Of a DNA stretch of 64,000 nt, positions 49,716 through 58,229 are shown one piece after another (the first letter of the stretch is position 1; each line of letters starts with the position of its first letter). Below the pieces are notes generated by a model. It worked only from the letters and a program-made list of their open reading frames with translations, ran no database searches and was not told where the DNA came from. The stretch lies in assembly GCF_034480035.2 (NCBI RefSeq), contig NZ_CP118753.2, forward strand, positions 2,275,486 to 2,339,485, read 5' to 3'. A program made the translations under genes and the position numbers. This stretch comes from Methanosphaera sp. ISO3-F5 (GTDB lineage: Archaea > Methanobacteriota > Methanobacteria > Methanobacteriales > Methanobacteriaceae).

Positions 49716-50921
49716 ATGAAATCCCAAAATACCTCTCCTATTAATAATTATGACGACAAACAATATAAACTTGACGATTATTTTGATGAACTACCTAAGC
49801 AATGTAGCCGAAAAGAATATATAGAAGATAAAATTGAAAAATTAAATTCCAATTTAACGATCTTTAAACTTAATGATACGTATCATTTAAAACAGAAACA
49901 TGTTTATTGTCCTGAATGTTATTCTAAAGATATAAATGAAAAAGGATATTACTCTAGAGGAATATTATTAATGGATTATGGTCTTGTTGATTGTAAAATT
50001 AAACGATACAAATGTAAACATTGTGGAAACGATTTTTCAGCAGATATTTCTTCTATTGTAAAACCTAATTTTACAGTATCAAATGAAGTATTAGACATTG
50101 TAGAAACATATTACTCAATTGACTTCACAAATGTCAGAAAAATCAGAGAATTCTTTGAAAAAGTTCATGGAATTAAGATATCCCATCAAGAAATTCAAGA
50201 CATCTTAGTCGATTATCATATTCATTTTAATCCAAATATTAAAGAATATTCAGGATATTATGCATTTGATGCTTTATGGATAAAAATAAAAGAAATCAGT
50301 GATAAATACGTGTTTTTATTAGCATTAGTTGATGTGTGTCATGATACTATTGTAGCTTATAAAGTTGTTGAACATGAAACAGAAGAAGAAGTACTAAAAT
50401 TTCTCAAAGAAGCCACATCAAATCAAGAACGAAAAGCCATTACAACAGACTTAAAACCCGAATACATGTCTCCCATCAATGCTTTAGGATTTAAACATCA
50501 ATTTTGTAAATTCCATTTTAAACAAAATAACAATAGAATTATCAGAAAATATGTTAAAGATAACAATCTACCTGAAGAAAAAATAAAAGAATATAAAAAG
50601 TTTTTACCAGAATTATATGAAATATATGATGTAAAAACTCAAACAGAAGTAGCAAAAATCGTAAAAAACTTGAAAAAGAAAATAAATGACTTTCCCGAAG
50701 TTATTCAATACATAATTAATGAAAAATCAGCACCGTATTTTAAAAACTTAACATATTTCCTTGAAAATGCAAAAATCGAAAGCACAAGCAATATCCTAGA
50801 AAGAATATTTGAAGATCTTGCTCCAAAGCATGTGAAAAAATGTTATAAAACTATAAAAGGATTTTTATCAAGATTTAACTTAAAATTAAAGCGATGGGAT
50901 GAGAGAAATGCGATTTACTGA
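49716..50921 (+). CDS. DDE transposase of the nested IS, with N-terminal zinc finger
   Basis: 401 residues. An N-terminal zinc-finger pair CPECYSKDINEKGYYSRG...YKCKHCGNDF at about 67-108 binds DNA ends; the catalytic triad is likely Asp in YYAFDALWIKI, Asp in AITTDLKPEYM and Glu in STSNILERIFEDL. Length and frame are intact, and AAAGGAGAGATATTAT precedes the ATG. The stop codon is only 12 bp before the right inverted repeat. The element has split an IS4 transposase gene. Confidence 0.88.
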   Translation: MKSQNTSPINNYDDKQYKLDDYFDELPKQCSRKEYIEDKIEKLNSNLTIFKLNDTYHLKQKHVYCPECYSKDINEKGYYSRGILLMDYGLVDCKIKRYKCKHCGNDFSADISSIVKPNFTVSNEVLDIVETYYSIDFTNVRKIREFFEKVHGIKISHQEIQDILVDYHIHFNPNIKEYSGYYAFDALWIKIKEISDKYVFLLALVDVCHDTIVAYKVVEHETEEEVLKFLKEATSNQERKAITTDLKPEYMSPINALGFKHQFCKFHFKQNNNRIIRKYVKDNNLPEEKIKEYKKFLPELYEIYDVKTQTEVAKIVKNLKKKINDFPEVIQYIINEKSAPYFKNLTYFLENAKIESTSNILERIFEDLAPKHVKKCYKTIKGFLSRFNLKLKRWDERNAIY

Positions 50922-50965: not shown

Positions 50966-52343
50966 TCTGGAAAAAATTAATAAGTATTGTTGTAGAAAAT
51001 ATGTATTAGATGATGTTCATTTTACTCGTAAGCGTAAAATTGGGATGGATGATTTGATTCTTCATCTTATTACCAATAAAAACCGTGCTAATGTTGTAGA
51101 ATGTTTATCTTTTTATAAAGAACTTAAACAGGATGATTTTGTGACTATTACTCCTCAAGCTTTTAGTGAAAAACGACAATATTTGGATCCAAGAGTATTT
51201 GTTGATATGAATTCTGATTTGATGTCTGATATTTATAATCAAAGTGATGAATTAAAGGAATATAAAGAATATTGGGTATTTGGTTGTGATACAAGTGTTA
51301 TTGATTGTCCTAATACACCTTTAACTAAAAAAGAATGGGATGTTCCAAAAGATAATCCTATCCACGAATATCGTAGTAGAGCAAGAATTTCTGCCATTAC
51401 TGATGATTTAAATCATTTTATTCTATCTTCAGAAATAGTTCCTAAAAATACATCAGAAGTAGAGTTAGCAATAAACCACATAAACGATTTAAAAGATAAG
51501 ATAACTCTCAATAAGAGTATAACAGTATATGACCGAGGATATAACAGTACAAAACTAATATTATATCACTTGATTAACAAATCAAACTTCATAATAAGAT
51601 TAAAAAAGGACACCTATAAAAATCAACGAGCAAAAATGCTATCAGATGATGAAAACATAGAAATCAAAGTCAAAAAAATTCATAAAAAAGATTTAACACC
51701 TGAAGAAAAAATAATTGCTAAAAGTATAGGAAACCCACAAATAAGAGTAGTGAACATACCAGTAACAAGATCCAATGGAGAAACATACATAGAATCATTA
51801 ATAACCAATCTTCCACAAGAAAAATTTACCCCAGAAGACCTTAAAAGATTATATGGAACCAGATGGGAAACAGAAATCAATTTCGACAGATTAAAAAACA
51901 GATTAGACATAGAAAACTTCTCAGGACAAAAGAAAATAACTATACAACAAGACTTTTACAGCCACATATTCATTTTCAACATACTAATGGCAACATACAA
52001 TGACGCCACACAACAAATAAACCGAAAATCACGAAAAGAAGTACAAGAAAAACTAGAATACAAACCAAACTTAAACACAATAATAGGACTAATAAGAAAA
52101 TACCTATTAAAACTAGTATTCGAAGATAAAGCAACACGGACAAAAATAATAAAGCACATAACAGAAATAGCATCCAAAAGTTTAGTCACAACAAAAATAA
52201 GCCCACCCCCAAACACCAACAACAGACTAGCACAAGACCCAACAAACAAACACCCCGGAAACAACAGAAAACCATAAAAAAACAAAATGAAAAAAAAGTT
52301 ACTTCAACACAAAATCCTTAACTTGATAGCATTGATAATTGAT

Positions 52344-52585: not shown

Positions 52586-53236
52586 TTATAAAGTTTCATT
52601 AACCCTATCAATATCAAACTTAGCAGTACTTGCAATAGCCATAACAGCCATAACACCAGCCTGAACAGGATCAGTAACAACCAAATCAGCATGATCCCTT
52701 ACTGAACCCACCATATTTAAACTAATAACCTTTACGCCATAATTCTCTTTAATTTCATCAATAGCATCCACAATAGAACCACCCATCAATGAACCTGCAA
52801 GTACCAGTCCACTTACGCGTGGAAGACTGCCAACAGCACGTACCGCTTCTGCTAATTTTTGTTCACCTGCCAGTGGTATGGTATCAATACTTATACGTTC
52901 ACCCCTAATATTATGACGATCAGCCTCTGTTATAGCACCAAGCGCTACCTGAGACACCTGTGCCCCACCGCCGATTATGATGATACGCTTCCCCCATACC
53001 TGATCCATTGAGGGTGACTTGCTTATTTCTTTAACCTCTGATAGATTATTCAGCTCATTAATTACATTATCCAAAGACTCTACTTCTTCAATTTCCATGT
53101 AAATATGTGCATTATCTATAGAATCTTTGTGCATATGTGTATAAACAATATTTATATTGTTTTGAGCTATAAAATCTGTTATTTTTCTTAGAACTCCTGG
53201 TTTATCGATAGTTTTTATGTTTATTGCATTTACCAT
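52586..53236 (-). CDS. ACT domain protein with DUF5612-type C-terminal domain
   Basis: 216 residues from the ATG at 53236, 4 nt after GGTGAT; the longer frame to 53269 lacks support. Residues 1-75 form an ACT domain ([28 protein letters not shown]). The rest has [26 protein letters not shown] and a Gly-rich [18 protein letters not shown], a Rossmann-like conserved archaeal domain. ACT domains bind amino acids and regulate enzymes; the ligand is unknown. Confidence 0.82.
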
Positions 53237-53386
53237 TTTTATCACCATAAAAATAAAGATTTGAATCAATTATGACTAATTATTCCTAGTTAATGTTTTG
53301 TAGAAAATATTTATAATATTTATTTCATCTCTTTTAATTCAGCCATGAAAAAATAATAAAAAATATTTTAATGAAAATAAAGCAAT

Positions 53387-53396
53387 CTTTATATAC
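53387..53396 (+). promoter_or_regulatory. TATA box for a candidate RNA gene
   Basis: CTTTATATAC, the same ten bases as the TATA box of feoA on the other strand, predicts a start near 53417-53421, exactly where the hairpin series begins. Confidence 0.5.
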
Positions 53397-53417
53397 TACG
53401 TTATTAAATATAATAAC

Positions 53418-53613
53418 TGTGGAACAAAACCACAATAAGAATAACAATTAAAGTAAGGGTATTGTTATTAAGATTAAAAATTAATAAATTTAGACCCCTA
53501 AAATATATATTCAAGTAAAAATAAGGAAAATATTCACCATTTGATGAATTCTTGAATGACAATATCCTTTGCACATCCCACAAGAATATACAAAACTTGA
53601 CATTCTTTTTTTT
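53418..53613 (+). ncRNA. Candidate structured non-coding RNA, about 195 nt
   Basis: No usable reading frame, but a full transcription-unit layout: TATA box at 53387-53396; hairpin TGTGG/CCACA at 53418-53434; 9-bp stem AATAACAAT/ATTGTTATT at 53440-53469; a longer imperfect stem with outer pair AAGGA/TCCTT (53523-53527 and 53565-53569) and inner ATTCA/TGAAT; and a terminator-like stem AAGAAT/ATTCTT (53582-53607) ending in an eight-to-nine T run. The size does not fit SRP RNA or RNase P RNA. Existence is inferred from sequence only. Confidence 0.45.
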
Positions 53614-53724
53614 ATAAATTTTTAAAATGCTTTAAAAAACAGTAGAACATAAAACATTACTTAATAAAAAATAATTCTCAATAAAAATAGTAAAATTAAT
53701 TAAAAATAGGAAATGAATCCTCTT

Positions 53725-53940
53725 TTAATAGCTATCCATACGGAAAACTTTCATAACTTTTCCAAAAAAGCCCATTTCTTCTTGTTTTTTGACTTTCTTA
53801 GGAATAGCATTGTTTGGTAGTCTTACCTCATATCCACAATTTGGACATAAAACTTTGTCTCCTCCACAACCACAAGTACAATCAAGTAATTCTTCCTTGG
53901 ATTCGTCAAATTCGTGTCCACATAATCTACATGATATCAT
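53725..53940 (-). CDS. Mini zinc-ribbon protein
   Basis: 71 residues with CRLCGHEF, a CTCGCGG centre and CPNCGYEVRLP, i.e. two treble-clef-like zinc ribbons, then a basic amphipathic tail (KKVKKQEEMGFFGKVMKVF). GAGG is 8 nt before the ATG. Paralogue of the gene directly upstream (15 bp). Function unknown; possibly nucleic-acid or protein binding. Confidence 0.75.
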   Translation of the reverse strand: MISCRLCGHEFDESKEELLDCTCGCGGDKVLCPNCGYEVRLPNNAIPKKVKKQEEMGFFGKVMKVFRMDSY

Positions 53941-53955
53941 ATTATTAGCCTCATG

Positions 53956-54162
53956 TTATTTTTTAAATACTTCTTTAAGTTTTTTTAAGAATGATTCTTC
54001 ATCAAATTCTTGTTGGCGTAGCTCTTTAGGAACTGGAACATCATGTCCACAGTTAGGACATAATACATTACTTCCATGACAATCTCCAAATCCACACTTA
54101 AAGTCACATGGTCCCACAGTTTTTTCATCAAACTTGTTACCACATAACATGCATTGTATCAT
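53956..54162 (-). CDS. Mini zinc-ribbon protein, paralogue of the next gene
   Basis: 68 residues with CMLCGNKF, CDFKCGFGDC and CPNCGHDVPVP, then a charged helical tail ending FLKKLKEVFKK. GGGAGG precedes the ATG. Shares layout with its neighbour, so a tandem duplication. It sits downstream of feoB but behind that gene's terminator. Confidence 0.75.
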   Translation of the reverse strand: MIQCMLCGNKFDEKTVGPCDFKCGFGDCHGSNVLCPNCGHDVPVPKELRQQEFDEESFLKKLKEVFKK

Positions 54163-54257
54163 ATTTTTTTATCCTCCCATTTTATTTCTTGTTTTTATTA
54201 GGATATTTTTTAGTATTAACTCCAATAATCATGAAAAAACACCTCCCCATAAATTCT

Positions 54258-54297
54258 TCTAAAAAAAAGATGTAATAGTATAAAGTGTTATACTATT
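54258..54297 (-). terminator. Terminator of feoB
   Basis: A perfect 10-bp stem, AATAGTATAA/TTATACTATT at 54274-54297 with a 4-nt loop, begins at the feoB stop codon and is followed on the minus strand by an eight-T run near 54261-54268. Confidence 0.7.
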
Positions 54298-56315
54298 TAT
54301 TTATATCCAAGTAATAATCCTCCTTGGAAAACAATGAGTGAAAGCACGTAAGCAATGACCAGACATATACCTATTGATGCAAACATCCATTTCCATGAGT
54401 TGGATTCTTCCTTGATAGCACCGATTGCTGCGAAACATGCAGGGTATAATAAAGTGAATACCATGAATGAAATTGCTGATAATGGTGTGAACATCTGAGA
54501 GAGTACACCTGAAATTCCTTGTTCATCATCTTCTGCTAGTGAGAATAATGTACCGAATGTTGATACTACAATTTCTTTTGCCATTAATCCGAATACTAAA
54601 GCTACTGCTGCTTGCCAGAATCCGAATCCTAATGGACCAAATAGTGGTGCTAATATGCTACCAAACATACCGATTAGGCTGTTTGCTGAACCGTATTCTA
54701 CTCCAGGTGGTAGGTTTGCTAATATCCATACAAGTACGGATGTACCTAATATGATTGTACCTGCTTTTTTGATGAATAAGAATCCTCTTTCCCACATGTG
54801 TAATACTGCACTTTTTAGTGTAGGTATTCTGTATGGTGGAAGTTCCATGATAAATGGTGATGATTCTTCTGAGAATACTGAGCTTTTAAGTACTTTAGCT
54901 ACTATTATTGCTACAATCATACCTAATATGTAGAGTCCGAATGTTACTACTGTTTGTTGGAATGGATCAGAGAAGAATGCTGCTGTGAATAATGCGTATA
55001 TTGGCACTCTTGCACTACATGATATGAATGGTATTGCTAACATTGTGGATATTCTGTCACTTTCGTTTGATAATGTTCTTGTTGACATGATAGCAGTTAC
55101 TCCACATCCAAATCCTAATATCATTGGAATAAATGCTTTTCCTGATAATCCCATTACTTTGTGCATTGCTCTGTCTATTACGAATGCTGCTCTTGCCAGG
55201 TATCCTATGTCTTCTATTAGACTTAGTAGGAAGAACAGTATGAAAATGATTGGTACGAATGTTAGTACTCCACCTACTCCACCGATTACTGCATCTATGA
55301 GTAATGATGAGACTAGTCCTTCACCGAATATTTGGAATAAGTATTCGCTTAATATTCCCCATCCTTGATCTATTAGGTCTTGGAATGGTGCTCCTATTGT
55401 GTATGTGATTTGGAATATTAAGAATATTACGATGAAAAATATTGGAAGTCCTAAGTATTTGTTTGTTACTATTTTATCTATTTTATCGGTAATTGATTCT
55501 TTTTCGCCTGTTGGTTTTTTTACTGATTGTTTTAGGATTTTGTCTATTTCTGCGTATCTTGCATCAATGAATGTGTCGTCTACATTGTCATTGAATTTGT
55601 TTTCTAGTTCTTTTCTTATTTCTGTTACTTTTCGTAGGTTTTGTTTGTCTGATGATTGTTCGGCTAAGTCTAGGACTTCGTCGTCGCCTTCGAGTAATTT
55701 TACTGCTGTCCAGCTGTCTGGTGCAGATCCTACTTTTAAGTGTGGGAATAGTTCTTTTACTTGTTTGATTTGTTCGTCTAGTTCAAATCCATAGGTTAGG
55801 TTTGCTGAGTTGTCGGATGGATTTTTTGCTGCTTTTATTGATGCTTTTACTAGGTCGTCTAGTCCTGTTCCTTCTCTTGCATCAACTACTACTACTGGTA
55901 TTCCCAGTGCTTTTTCTAATTTTTTTATGTCTATTTTGAACCCTGCTTCTTCAGCGTAGTTTAACATGTTTAATGCGAGTATGGTGTTTGCACCAGTTTC
56001 CATTATTTGTAATGTTAAGTATAAGTTTCTTTGTATGTTTTCTGCGTCTATTACGTTTATTACTGCGTCGTTTTCTTCGTGTATGATTGCGTCTCTTGAA
56101 ACTTGTTCTTCTACTGAGTATGGGGTTAAACTGTAATTTCCTGGTAAATCTATTACTTCAATATCATAGTTATCAAATGTAAAACTACCAGATTTTAGTT
56201 CTACTGTTTTACCTGGCCAGTTTCCTACGTGTTGTTTCATACCTGTTAGTTGGTTGAATACTGTACTTTTTCCTACGTTAGGGTTTCCGGCAAGTAAAAA
56301 TTTTAATTTCTCCAT
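54297..56315 (-). CDS. feoB: Ferrous iron transport protein B
   Basis: 672 residues. N-terminal G domain with GNPNVGKST (10-18) and DLPGNYSL (G3), then a helical domain, then eight or so membrane segments with the FeoB core (GCGVTAIMSTRTL; CSARVPIYALFTAAFF) and a final GFWQAAVALVFGLMAKEIVVSTFGTLF gate. Moves Fe2+ across the membrane under GTP control. AGAGGTATGAC precedes the ATG. It has its own promoter with a DtxR-like palindrome, 135 bp downstream of feoA. Confidence 0.96.
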   Translation of the reverse strand: MEKLKFLLAGNPNVGKSTVFNQLTGMKQHVGNWPGKTVELKSGSFTFDNYDIEVIDLPGNYSLTPYSVEEQVSRDAIIHEENDAVINVIDAENIQRNLYLTLQIMETGANTILALNMLNYAEEAGFKIDIKKLEKALGIPVVVVDAREGTGLDDLVKASIKAAKNPSDNSANLTYGFELDEQIKQVKELFPHLKVGSAPDSWTAVKLLEGDDEVLDLAEQSSDKQNLRKVTEIRKELENKFNDNVDDTFIDARYAEIDKILKQSVKKPTGEKESITDKIDKIVTNKYLGLPIFFIVIFLIFQITYTIGAPFQDLIDQGWGILSEYLFQIFGEGLVSSLLIDAVIGGVGGVLTFVPIIFILFFLLSLIEDIGYLARAAFVIDRAMHKVMGLSGKAFIPMILGFGCGVTAIMSTRTLSNESDRISTMLAIPFISCSARVPIYALFTAAFFSDPFQQTVVTFGLYILGMIVAIIVAKVLKSSVFSEESSPFIMELPPYRIPTLKSAVLHMWERGFLFIKKAGTIILGTSVLVWILANLPPGVEYGSANSLIGMFGSILAPLFGPLGFGFWQAAVALVFGLMAKEIVVSTFGTLFSLAEDDEQGISGVLSQMFTPLSAISFMVFTLLYPACFAAIGAIKEESNSWKWMFASIGICLVIAYVLSLIVFQGGLLLGYK

Positions 56316-56338
56316 GTCATACCTCTTAACTAACTTAT

Positions 56339-56360
56339 CAATTTAGGCTTGCCTAAATTG
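56339..56360 (-). promoter_or_regulatory. DtxR-type operator at the feoB promoter
   Basis: Arms AATTTAGGC and GCCTAAATT form a 22-bp palindrome broken only at the centre, ending 23 bp before the feoB ATG. A TATA-like GTAATAAAATAC lies just upstream, so a bound repressor would cover the transcription start. The TTAGGC/GCCTAA halves fit the DtxR/IdeR/MntR family. Confidence 0.6.
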
Positions 56361-56450
56361 AGTTGTATTTTATTACAACTTAAAATTTAAAATGAAAATA
56401 AATATTAACCCTTTAGTTAATAATAAATAAAAAGATACAATTAATTAGAT

Positions 56451-56675
56451 TTATTCTAATTCAATTGCCTGAGCTTCTTCTTTTCTTAAAGCCAAAGAAA
56501 AACCTTGAATTCTAATTTCAACAGGATATCCTAATGGTGCTTTCCTTTCTAATTTTACTGGAATTCCATTAATTAAACCCATTTCCCTGAGATGTTTACC
56601 AAGAGTTCCTTTTACTCTGTGTTTTCTAACAATTCCTGTTTCTCCTGGTTTTAAGTCATCTACTGTTTTTGCCAT
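56451..56675 (-). CDS. feoA: Ferrous iron transport protein A
   Basis: 74-residue SH3-like protein (DDLKPGETGIVRKHRVKGTLGKHLREMGLINGIPVKLERKAPLGYPVEIRIQGFSLALRKEEA pattern, typical FeoA length). Assists FeoB. AGGAGGC precedes the ATG. The leader is about 125 nt, behind an operator-controlled promoter. Confidence 0.94.
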   Translation of the reverse strand: MAKTVDDLKPGETGIVRKHRVKGTLGKHLREMGLINGIPVKLERKAPLGYPVEIRIQGFSLALRKEEAQAIELE

Positions 56676-56789
56676 GAAATGCCTCCTATAAATAATATAA
56701 GTTTATCTATGATATTTTACCATCAAAAAAAAATATTTAACACGATAATTAGGTCAATGAAATAATTTTTTTTAAACACATAATTAGTA

Positions 56790-56833
56790 ATACCTAATTA
56801 GGTATACCTAAGTTTTTCATAGTATATAAAGTT
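56790..56833 (-). promoter_or_regulatory. feoA promoter with overlapping DtxR-type operator
   Basis: On the minus strand a BRE/TATA-like CCAAAACTTTATATAC (about 56824-56839) is followed about 20-30 bp later by the perfect palindrome TACCTAATTAGGTA (56791-56804) and an overlapping TTAGGTATACC half-site. A further ACCTAATTAT half-site lies near 56745-56753. Placement over the expected start site suits iron-dependent repression. Confidence 0.6.
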
Positions 56834-56933
56834 TTGGTGAATAAAAATTTATAACAACAAAAAAAAGTAACAAAAATAATAAAAAATTGAAAAAATAATA
56901 AAAAAAACACTAAAAAAAAATTGTAGAAGGTAA

Positions 56934-57203
56934 TTAGTTACCTTCTAAAGCTTTTCTTTCTTCATCTAATTTATGTTTAGCCATTTGGAAGAGAACTAAG
57001 TAATCAGAATCATCCATAACAGGAATAACTTCTAAACCTAATGCTTCATGTTCTTCAATCCAATCATCATTAAGAACAGGAACTTCTAATTTAATTGGTT
57101 CATCGCTATGATTAACAACAATTAAGTTTCTGAAAGTAGTTCTAAGTTCTACAATGTATCCACCTAAACCTATTATATGATGTTCACGTAATACTATTTT
57201 CAT
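56934..57203 (-). CDS. ehbP: Energy-converting hydrogenase B subunit P
   Basis: 89 residues, no membrane segment or Cys motif; short beta-rich N-half (KIVLREHHIIGLGGYIVELRTTFRNLIVV) and helical end. Assigned by length and place after ehbO, as in the Methanothermobacter Ehb operon. AAGGTGATAAC precedes the ATG. It is the last Ehb gene here; a following ehbQ, present in that operon, is absent at this spot. Confidence 0.78.
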   Translation of the reverse strand: MKIVLREHHIIGLGGYIVELRTTFRNLIVVNHSDEPIKLEVPVLNDDWIEEHEALGLEVIPVMDDSDYLVLFQMAKHKLDEERKALEGN

Positions 57204-57212
57204 GTTATCACC

Positions 57213-58229
57213 TTATAATAATACAGTTGTTAAAACAGCTGTTACAACTCCCACTACTGCGATCATACTTGTAGCAATGACTGTAGGATAGAATTCACGG
57301 TTAGTGAATAATGGTGCGAAAGCACTGGTTACAGCAATTGCCATTGTGATGATAATTGAACAAATAATAGGTATTATTATTGAAATATTCAAAGGATTTA
57401 GAGCAAAGAATGGTGGCATACCTAAGAATAATGTTGAATAAATACATGCTCCAACAAATATTAAGGAAGCGTGAGCCATTGTATAAATTGCTCTTGATTT
57501 TGACATATATTCCATAATAGGACCTTGAATTACATCAGAGTGACCTTCCAAGTATGCGAAAGGATTTGAATTTAATATAATTAAGAATCCTATGAAGAAT
57601 ACTATTGAACCAATTATACCTGGTAGAGTGAATAAGAAAGCACCGTTAACTTGTTGGAATCTTACGATTTCAATTAAGTCAATACTTCCAGCCATTATTA
57701 CAGGTATAAATAATGCTATATAGAATGGTAAACTACCAAATGAAACAAGTCTTAATGACCTATTTGCACTTATTGTTTCTAAGAATGATTGTTTAGCACC
57801 TCTATGTTTTCCACCTTTTGCTTGGTCAGGGAAAGGCATTGTTTTAGACATAAGTGACTGTGAGAATGAACTCATGAATAAATATAATACTTCTTCCACT
57901 TTTAATAAACCTACAACTGCTACTATACTAGCAAATGGACCCCATGCTGCCATTACAGGAGGCATTAATATAAGGAATAATGCTGCTACTACAATCAATG
58001 TTACAATAGGTAATGCGTTGTATACTCTTGGCATAACTGCTGATGGTTTTAAAGCTTTTTTATAAAAGAACTTTAATGTAGTGTATATACCAGGACTAGT
58101 AAGTTGAGGTCCAATCCTTTGTTGTACCCTAGCTTCTGATTTCTTTTCAATACCTGGTAACCATAAAGCTACGAAACCAGCAATTATGAAAGTAACGACT
58201 ACATAAATGATTGATGTTAATAAATCCAT
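57213..58229 (-). CDS. ehbO: Energy-converting hydrogenase B subunit O (NuoH-like membrane protein)
   Basis: 338 residues with about eight membrane segments. Complex I NuoH/HyfC signatures: RVQQRIGPQLTSPGIYTTLKFFYKK near residue 35 and PFAYLEGHSDVIQGPIMEYMSKSRAIYTMAHAS. It couples the hydrogenase module to ion movement. Close to ehbN (11 bp) and ehbP (9 bp). Confidence 0.92.
   Translation of the reverse strand: MDLLTSIIYVVVTFIIAGFVALWLPGIEKKSEARVQQRIGPQLTSPGIYTTLKFFYKKALKPSAVMPRVYNALPIVTLIVVAALFLILMPPVMAAWGPFASIVAVVGLLKVEEVLYLFMSSFSQSLMSKTMPFPDQAKGGKHRGAKQSFLETISANRSLRLVSFGSLPFYIALFIPVIMAGSIDLIEIVRFQQVNGAFLFTLPGIIGSIVFFIGFLIILNSNPFAYLEGHSDVIQGPIMEYMSKSRAIYTMAHASLIFVGACIYSTLFLGMPPFFALNPLNISIIIPIICSIIITMAIAVTSAFAPLFTNREFYPTVIATSMIAVVGVVTAVLTTVLL

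Follow-up and report, generated by a model that had tools for sequence, protein, structure and literature searches.

A probable stand-alone small RNA gene with a covarying long-range stem, conserved in most of the genus Methanosphaera

The DNA analysed here (the window) spans 64,000 nucleotides of Methanosphaera sp. ISO3-F5, whose genome of 2,680,162 bases consists of two contigs, the first of 2,506,044 bases. Its gene order runs from ehb-type genes through feoA, feoB and zinc-ribbon genes to an RNA gene and an ACT/DUF5612 gene. The RNA gene occupies 53380-53613 of the + strand, with a predicted transcript of ~200 nt (53412-53613). It is divergent from the ACT/DUF5612 gene (52586-53233, - strand). 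On its other side are two small zinc-ribbon genes (53725-53940 and 53956-54162, both on the - strand), beyond which feoB and then feoA are found. The initial annotation, made from the sequence alone, described the divergence from the ACT gene correctly; however, the convergent flank that it ascribed to the iron genes is the 3' end of the zinc-ribbon gene, which the 3' end of the RNA gene faces, and not feo itself. The zinc-ribbon stop codon lies ~110 nt past the end of the U-run that closes the RNA. An open reading frame survey of the window found no + strand gene within or downstream of the RNA locus. With no gene following on the + strand, the RNA is therefore not a leader or riboswitch. Its G+C content is 24%, compared with 30% for the ISO3-F5 genome. 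Two transposase-like genes, assigned by eye only, adjoin the locus at 49716-50921 and 51045-52277 (+ strand).

The RNA gene has its own archaeal promoter, composed of a BRE-like ATAAAGCAAT followed by the TATA box CTTTATATACTA (53377-53398, + strand). Directly 5' of the BRE is a putative A/T-rich upstream promoter element similar to AAAAATnATTTAA (53356-53376, +), which is found at equal spacing in nearly all of the 14 species compared, and TAAAG(T/C)A...TTTATATA is almost invariant across 14 species. The TATA box had been reported as identical to that of feoA, and this was confirmed: the 12-mer CTTTATATACTA is present at 53387-53398 (+) and upstream of feoA at 56820-56831 (-), and nowhere else in the window. 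From the archaeal TATA-to-start distance, transcription is predicted to start at 53412-53417 (+), and a 5' hairpin comes next in all species. The spacing noted earlier is also right, as the clean hairpin at 53418-53434 begins ~26 nt past the TATA centre, where an archaeal start is expected. A promoter of its own, with TATA and BRE at start distance, is what characterizes a stand-alone archaeal sRNA gene. At the other end, a run of 8 T (53606-53613, +) presumably acts as an archaeal terminator, and an equivalent T-run occurs in most species. The hairpin that had been described together with it (53583-53607, formed by AAGAAT at 53583-53588 and ATTCTT at 53602-53607) is present in ISO3-F5 but is not kept in sister species.

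DtxR/IdeR-type palindromes were found at the iron genes: TTAGGTATACCTAA (56798-56811) comes directly after the TATA box of feoA, and TTAGGCTTGCCTAA (56343-56356) lies upstream of feoB. Palindromes similar to the DtxR type (TTAGGTTAACCTAA) also stand 5' of feoB in relatives, for example in G009. The sequences suggest iron-dependent repression of feo and not of the RNA gene. DtxR control of the RNA gene was rejected, with palindromes at feoA and feoB and none at the RNA promoter.

When the sequence 5' of the ACT orthologue was read in 20 Methanosphaera assemblies, the RNA gene stood at the same position in 16 of them (G000, which is ISO3-F5, and G010, G015, G014, G009, G019, G007, G005, G008, G004, G018, G002, G003, G016, G017, and G006). 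These carriers represent 14 distinct sequences, as G010 belongs to the same species as ISO3-F5 and the G002 and G003 sequences are almost identical. All 16 share the divergence from ACT/DUF5612, the convergence with the zinc-ribbon gene, a near-invariant BRE/TATA and the 5' hairpin, and most have the U-run. In a DNA search of the genus, G015, G014, G009, and G019 matched at 71-83% identity across at least ~200 nt, and more distant Methanosphaera gave shorter matches, partly of the promoter only. Identity is greatest at the promoter, at the helices P1 and P3 and at the motif UUCACCA (all described below), and falls past the U-run. The earlier proposal had been staked beforehand on conservation above background, and comparison with sister species bears this out.

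In G001 and G012 a different gene lies upstream of ACT, the same promoter is found elsewhere nearby, pointing at the zinc-ribbon gene, and the RNA body is strongly diverged. G013 yielded no RNA gene, and the G011 contig stops short of the locus. An extra insertion separates the RNA from the zinc-ribbon gene in G014, and the RNA is retained. In G016 (L029, 1,767,403 bp) the RNA interior is longer by ~200 nt, with both P3 strands and UUUCACCAC retained. RNA models detected one copy per genome, with E values of 1e-15 to 1e-23, and G004, G002, and G018 were also detected once they were included in the model. No second copy was found in the genome; the remaining DNA matches are short and A/T-rich. 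In whole-genome mode, model R2 missed G006, G016, and G017 despite their carrying the gene, and a missing model match is therefore weak evidence of absence.

Folded as a single sequence, the RNA has a minimum free energy of -28.7 kcal/mol (z = -1.6), and 12 of 200 shuffles were equally good. As this is only slightly better than shuffled sequence, the case for structure rests on comparison. The 5'-terminal hairpin P1 (UGUGG-loop-CCACA, 53418-53434, +) has a counterpart in all species, although its sequence and loop length vary. Support for P1 was taken from per-species folds, because a MAFFT alignment that included P1 misaligned it in some species. The conserved core is P3, a long-range helix between AAGGGUAUUGUU (53455-53466, +) and GACAAUAUCCUU (53558-53569, +), to which the larger imperfect stem of the initial annotation corresponds. 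All 14 sequences can pair a 5' GGRUAUUGU with a 3' ACAAUAYCC, or changed equivalents of these. The strands lie about 90 nt apart in ISO3-F5, and the interior ranges from 51 to 313 nt across the 14 sequences.

P3 was found to covary. With its blocks anchored by hand, 92.9% of its pairs are standard, and both sides have changed at 5 of 12 pairs, in 14 cells (13 distinct rows). Pair 5, for instance, occurs as G-C, A-U, and G-U, and pair 12 as A-U, U-G, C-G, and U-A. Sliding the partners by 1-3 columns left 0-1 pairs changed on both sides, and 0 of 500 shuffles scored as high on any measure except the pair-type count (5/500). On an unedited MAFFT alignment of 13 longer sequences, P3 was 83.7% paired, with both-side changes at 6 pairs in 16 cells; the slid controls gave 0-3 such pairs and no more than 4 cells. 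P3 thus has the conserved secondary structure with compensatory changes that marks an sRNA gene.

Some members of the genus also show an outer helix, P2, which is GCAUAUUAUC/GAUAA-UAUGC in G005 and G008 and differs in sequence in G004, G006, G009, G017, and G018; in ISO3-F5 it is weak. Two clean hairpins had been reported near the 5' end. The first is P1, which is general; the second, between AATAACAAT (53440-53448) and ATTGTTATT (53461-53469), is either missing from sister species or takes another form there. Because it draws on the 5' strand of P3, it competes with that helix, and it can at most be an alternative fold for some members of the genus.

Unpaired motifs are conserved as well. UUCACCA (53533-53539, +) is near-invariant amid the fast-evolving interior. 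The C-rich ACCCCUAA (53494-53501, +) is kept in much of the genus, being missing or changed in G005, G007, G008, G006, and G018, and AUCCCA (53575-53580, +), directly 3' of P3, is kept in most species and degenerate in G002, G016, G017, and G006. These three motifs are the main C clusters of the RNA. Internal hairpins presenting ACCCC and CACCA were in most species not above shuffled flanks.

The RNA does not belong to a known family. Rfam 15 gave no match in the window at the curated cut-off and only noise at loose thresholds across 53200-53800 (E 1.2 and 4.9), and none at E <= 0.5 in 11 sister loci, so the known-family match that the initial annotation had named as fatal to its proposal was found neither in the window nor in the sister loci. 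A C/D box sRNA was rejected, as conserved C (RUGAUGA) and D (CUGA) boxes are absent; UGAUGA occurs only in ISO3-F5 (53542-53547) and G015, and elsewhere it is UGAUAA or missing. The description of the segment as frameless holds, as there is no + strand gene and no reading frame conserved in position, length or sequence among the 16 sequences. A limited full-text literature search found no described regulatory RNA in Methanosphaera.

Homologues had also been suggested in Methanobrevibacter, and none was seen at the syntenic place, where RNA models gave no significant match at the ACT/DUF5612 locus. In Methanobrevibacter (L095-L113) the ACT/DUF5612 gene directly follows the ehb-type genes with no gap for the RNA, whereas most Methanosphaera have feoAB, two zinc-ribbon genes and the RNA in between (52586-58229 in the window). 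This difference in gene order suggests an insertion of the feo-zinc-ribbon-RNA block in Methanosphaera. Results for the syntenic place and eight order-level relatives suggest that the RNA is absent outside the genus.

Taken together, comparison of sequences indicates that the locus is very probably a stand-alone RNA gene not catalogued before. The candidate small RNA gene has stood up in its promoter, P1, U-run and lack of a frame, and across Methanosphaera it keeps its location, its promoter, the 5' hairpin and the long-range stem, with compensatory changes, although some of the stems first listed are not the conserved ones.

A search for targets among neighbouring leaders and by one motif found none. 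For the leaders of five neighbouring genes, pairing was no better than with shuffled RNA (duplex z ~0, the last species incomplete), and when seven genomes were searched for exact complements of the ACCCCUAAA motif, no conserved start-site target emerged. TTTAGGGGTY sites were rejected as targets, as their excess in ISO3-F5 comes from the paired ends of an insertion sequence; in other genomes the sites read were mostly within coding sequence. This insertion sequence of ~1.26 kb has inverted ends TTTAGGGGTCTAGA and at least 5 copies on chromosome and megaplasmid (188064-189323, 689835-691093, 969919-971178, and 2170287-2171544 on contig 1; 13958-15215 on contig 2). The local Shine-Dalgarno sequences seen were mostly GGAGG or GAGG, which are not complements of the motifs.

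As to function, the comparison supports a single-copy RNA with its own promoter, P1, P3 around a variable interior, C-rich motifs and a fixed neighbourhood. The reading placed first, and held tentatively, is that of a trans-acting regulatory sRNA whose C-rich unpaired motifs pair with mRNAs and block translation. Transcription would proceed from about 53415 to the U-run, and P1 and P3 would stabilize the RNA while leaving UUCACCA, ACCCCUAA, and AUCCCA free. These motifs could then pair with rare G-rich mRNA stretches near starts, of the GGUGA-, GGGGU- or GGGAU-type, and such pairing would block translation. This reading is ranked first because of two precedents. Unpaired C-rich motifs find Shine-Dalgarno regions in low-G+C bacteria, as in IsrR of S. 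aureus, which has three C-rich regions and acts by hiding ribosome-binding sites (PMC9410917), and the 191-nt intergenic sRNA162 of M. mazei masks a ribosome-binding site (PMC3510493). It is held no more firmly because the neighbouring leaders paired at chance level, GGAGG and GAGG prevail, and the motif search led to insertion-sequence ends.

The main rival, itself rather unlikely, is a structured RNA that binds protein as a scaffold or sponge, its single-stranded motifs being protein sites and not antisense seeds. Short invariant motifs inside a covarying frame would fit such a role, as would the failure of the pairing searches to find a target; however, no known RNP motif is present, Rfam is empty even at loose thresholds, and the C/D-like UGAUGA is confined to this species and G015. 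A local antisense effect appears improbable. It would act either on the zinc-ribbon mRNA, by read-through from the convergent side, or on the ACT/DUF5612 gene, by interference between the divergent promoters. The zinc-ribbon convergence does persist in G001 and G012 despite their altered ACT side, and sRNA162 likewise overlaps the 5' UTR of its divergent neighbour (PMC3510493). Against this stand the ~110 nt that separate the U-run from the zinc-ribbon stop codon, the chance-level leader duplexes and the retention of the RNA in G014 despite the insertion before the zinc-ribbon gene, and read-through would need no selection on a long-range stem.

Still less probable is a switch-like RNA, in which the P3 5' strand pairs by turns within the local hairpin (53440-53469) and in the long-range stem, with a ligand or temperature altering stability or motif exposure. 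The two folds are mutually exclusive in ISO3-F5 and local alternatives fold in G009, G019, G014, G007, G005, and G008, but they vary between species, are absent in G015, and are weak A/U hairpins of the kind expected at such base composition. That there is no RNA gene at all, but conserved regulatory DNA or chance A/T-rich stems, would agree with the unremarkable single-sequence fold, and is very improbable given compensatory changes across strands separated by ~90 nt in ISO3-F5 and by 51-313 nt in relatives, together with a U-run and a conserved promoter at the proper distance from the start. An mRNA for a very small protein is scarcely credible, as short frames exist (e.g., a 14-aa ATG frame near 53556 in ISO3-F5) but none is conserved among the 16 sequences, and length differences in loops and interior are not multiples of three.

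A broader and doubtful proposal is a family of regulatory RNAs, genus-wide among gut Methanobacteriales and placed beside the feoAB and zinc-ribbon genes, whose several C-rich anti-Shine-Dalgarno-like motifs retune translation, for example as an archaeal counterpart of bacterial iron-sparing sRNAs. A covariation-supported RNA gene with a near-invariant promoter in nearly the whole genus is a ready test object in cultured strains such as ISO3-F5. If it controls translation, it would give a first handle on post-transcriptional control in rumen and human-gut methanogens of this group.

Among known systems, the RNA resembles sRNA162 and sRNA171 of Methanosarcina mazei (PMC3510493) as an intergenic methanogen sRNA of similar length that is divergent from one neighbour, confined to close relatives and built of stem-loops with a single-stranded linker. 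The comparison concerns layout and not sequence. sRNA162 consists of three stem-loops, whereas most of the Methanosphaera RNA sits inside a long-range stem. Masking of a ribosome-binding site has been shown for sRNA162 and is proposed by analogy for the Methanosphaera RNA. One UGAUGA (53542-53547) recalls archaeal C/D box sRNAs, but it is not conserved in the genus, no C/C'/D/D' set was seen, the RNA is about three times too long and Rfam is negative. IsrR and its functional analogue FsrA, iron-sparing RNAs of Firmicutes (PMC9410917), resemble it in having several conserved C-rich motifs in single-stranded form, within a genome of low G+C content that has few G-rich stretches other than Shine-Dalgarno sequences. 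Unlike these bacterial RNAs, which are controlled by Fur, the Methanosphaera RNA has its nearby DtxR-type palindromes at feoA and feoB and not at its own promoter; what it shares with them in iron context is its place near iron-uptake genes.
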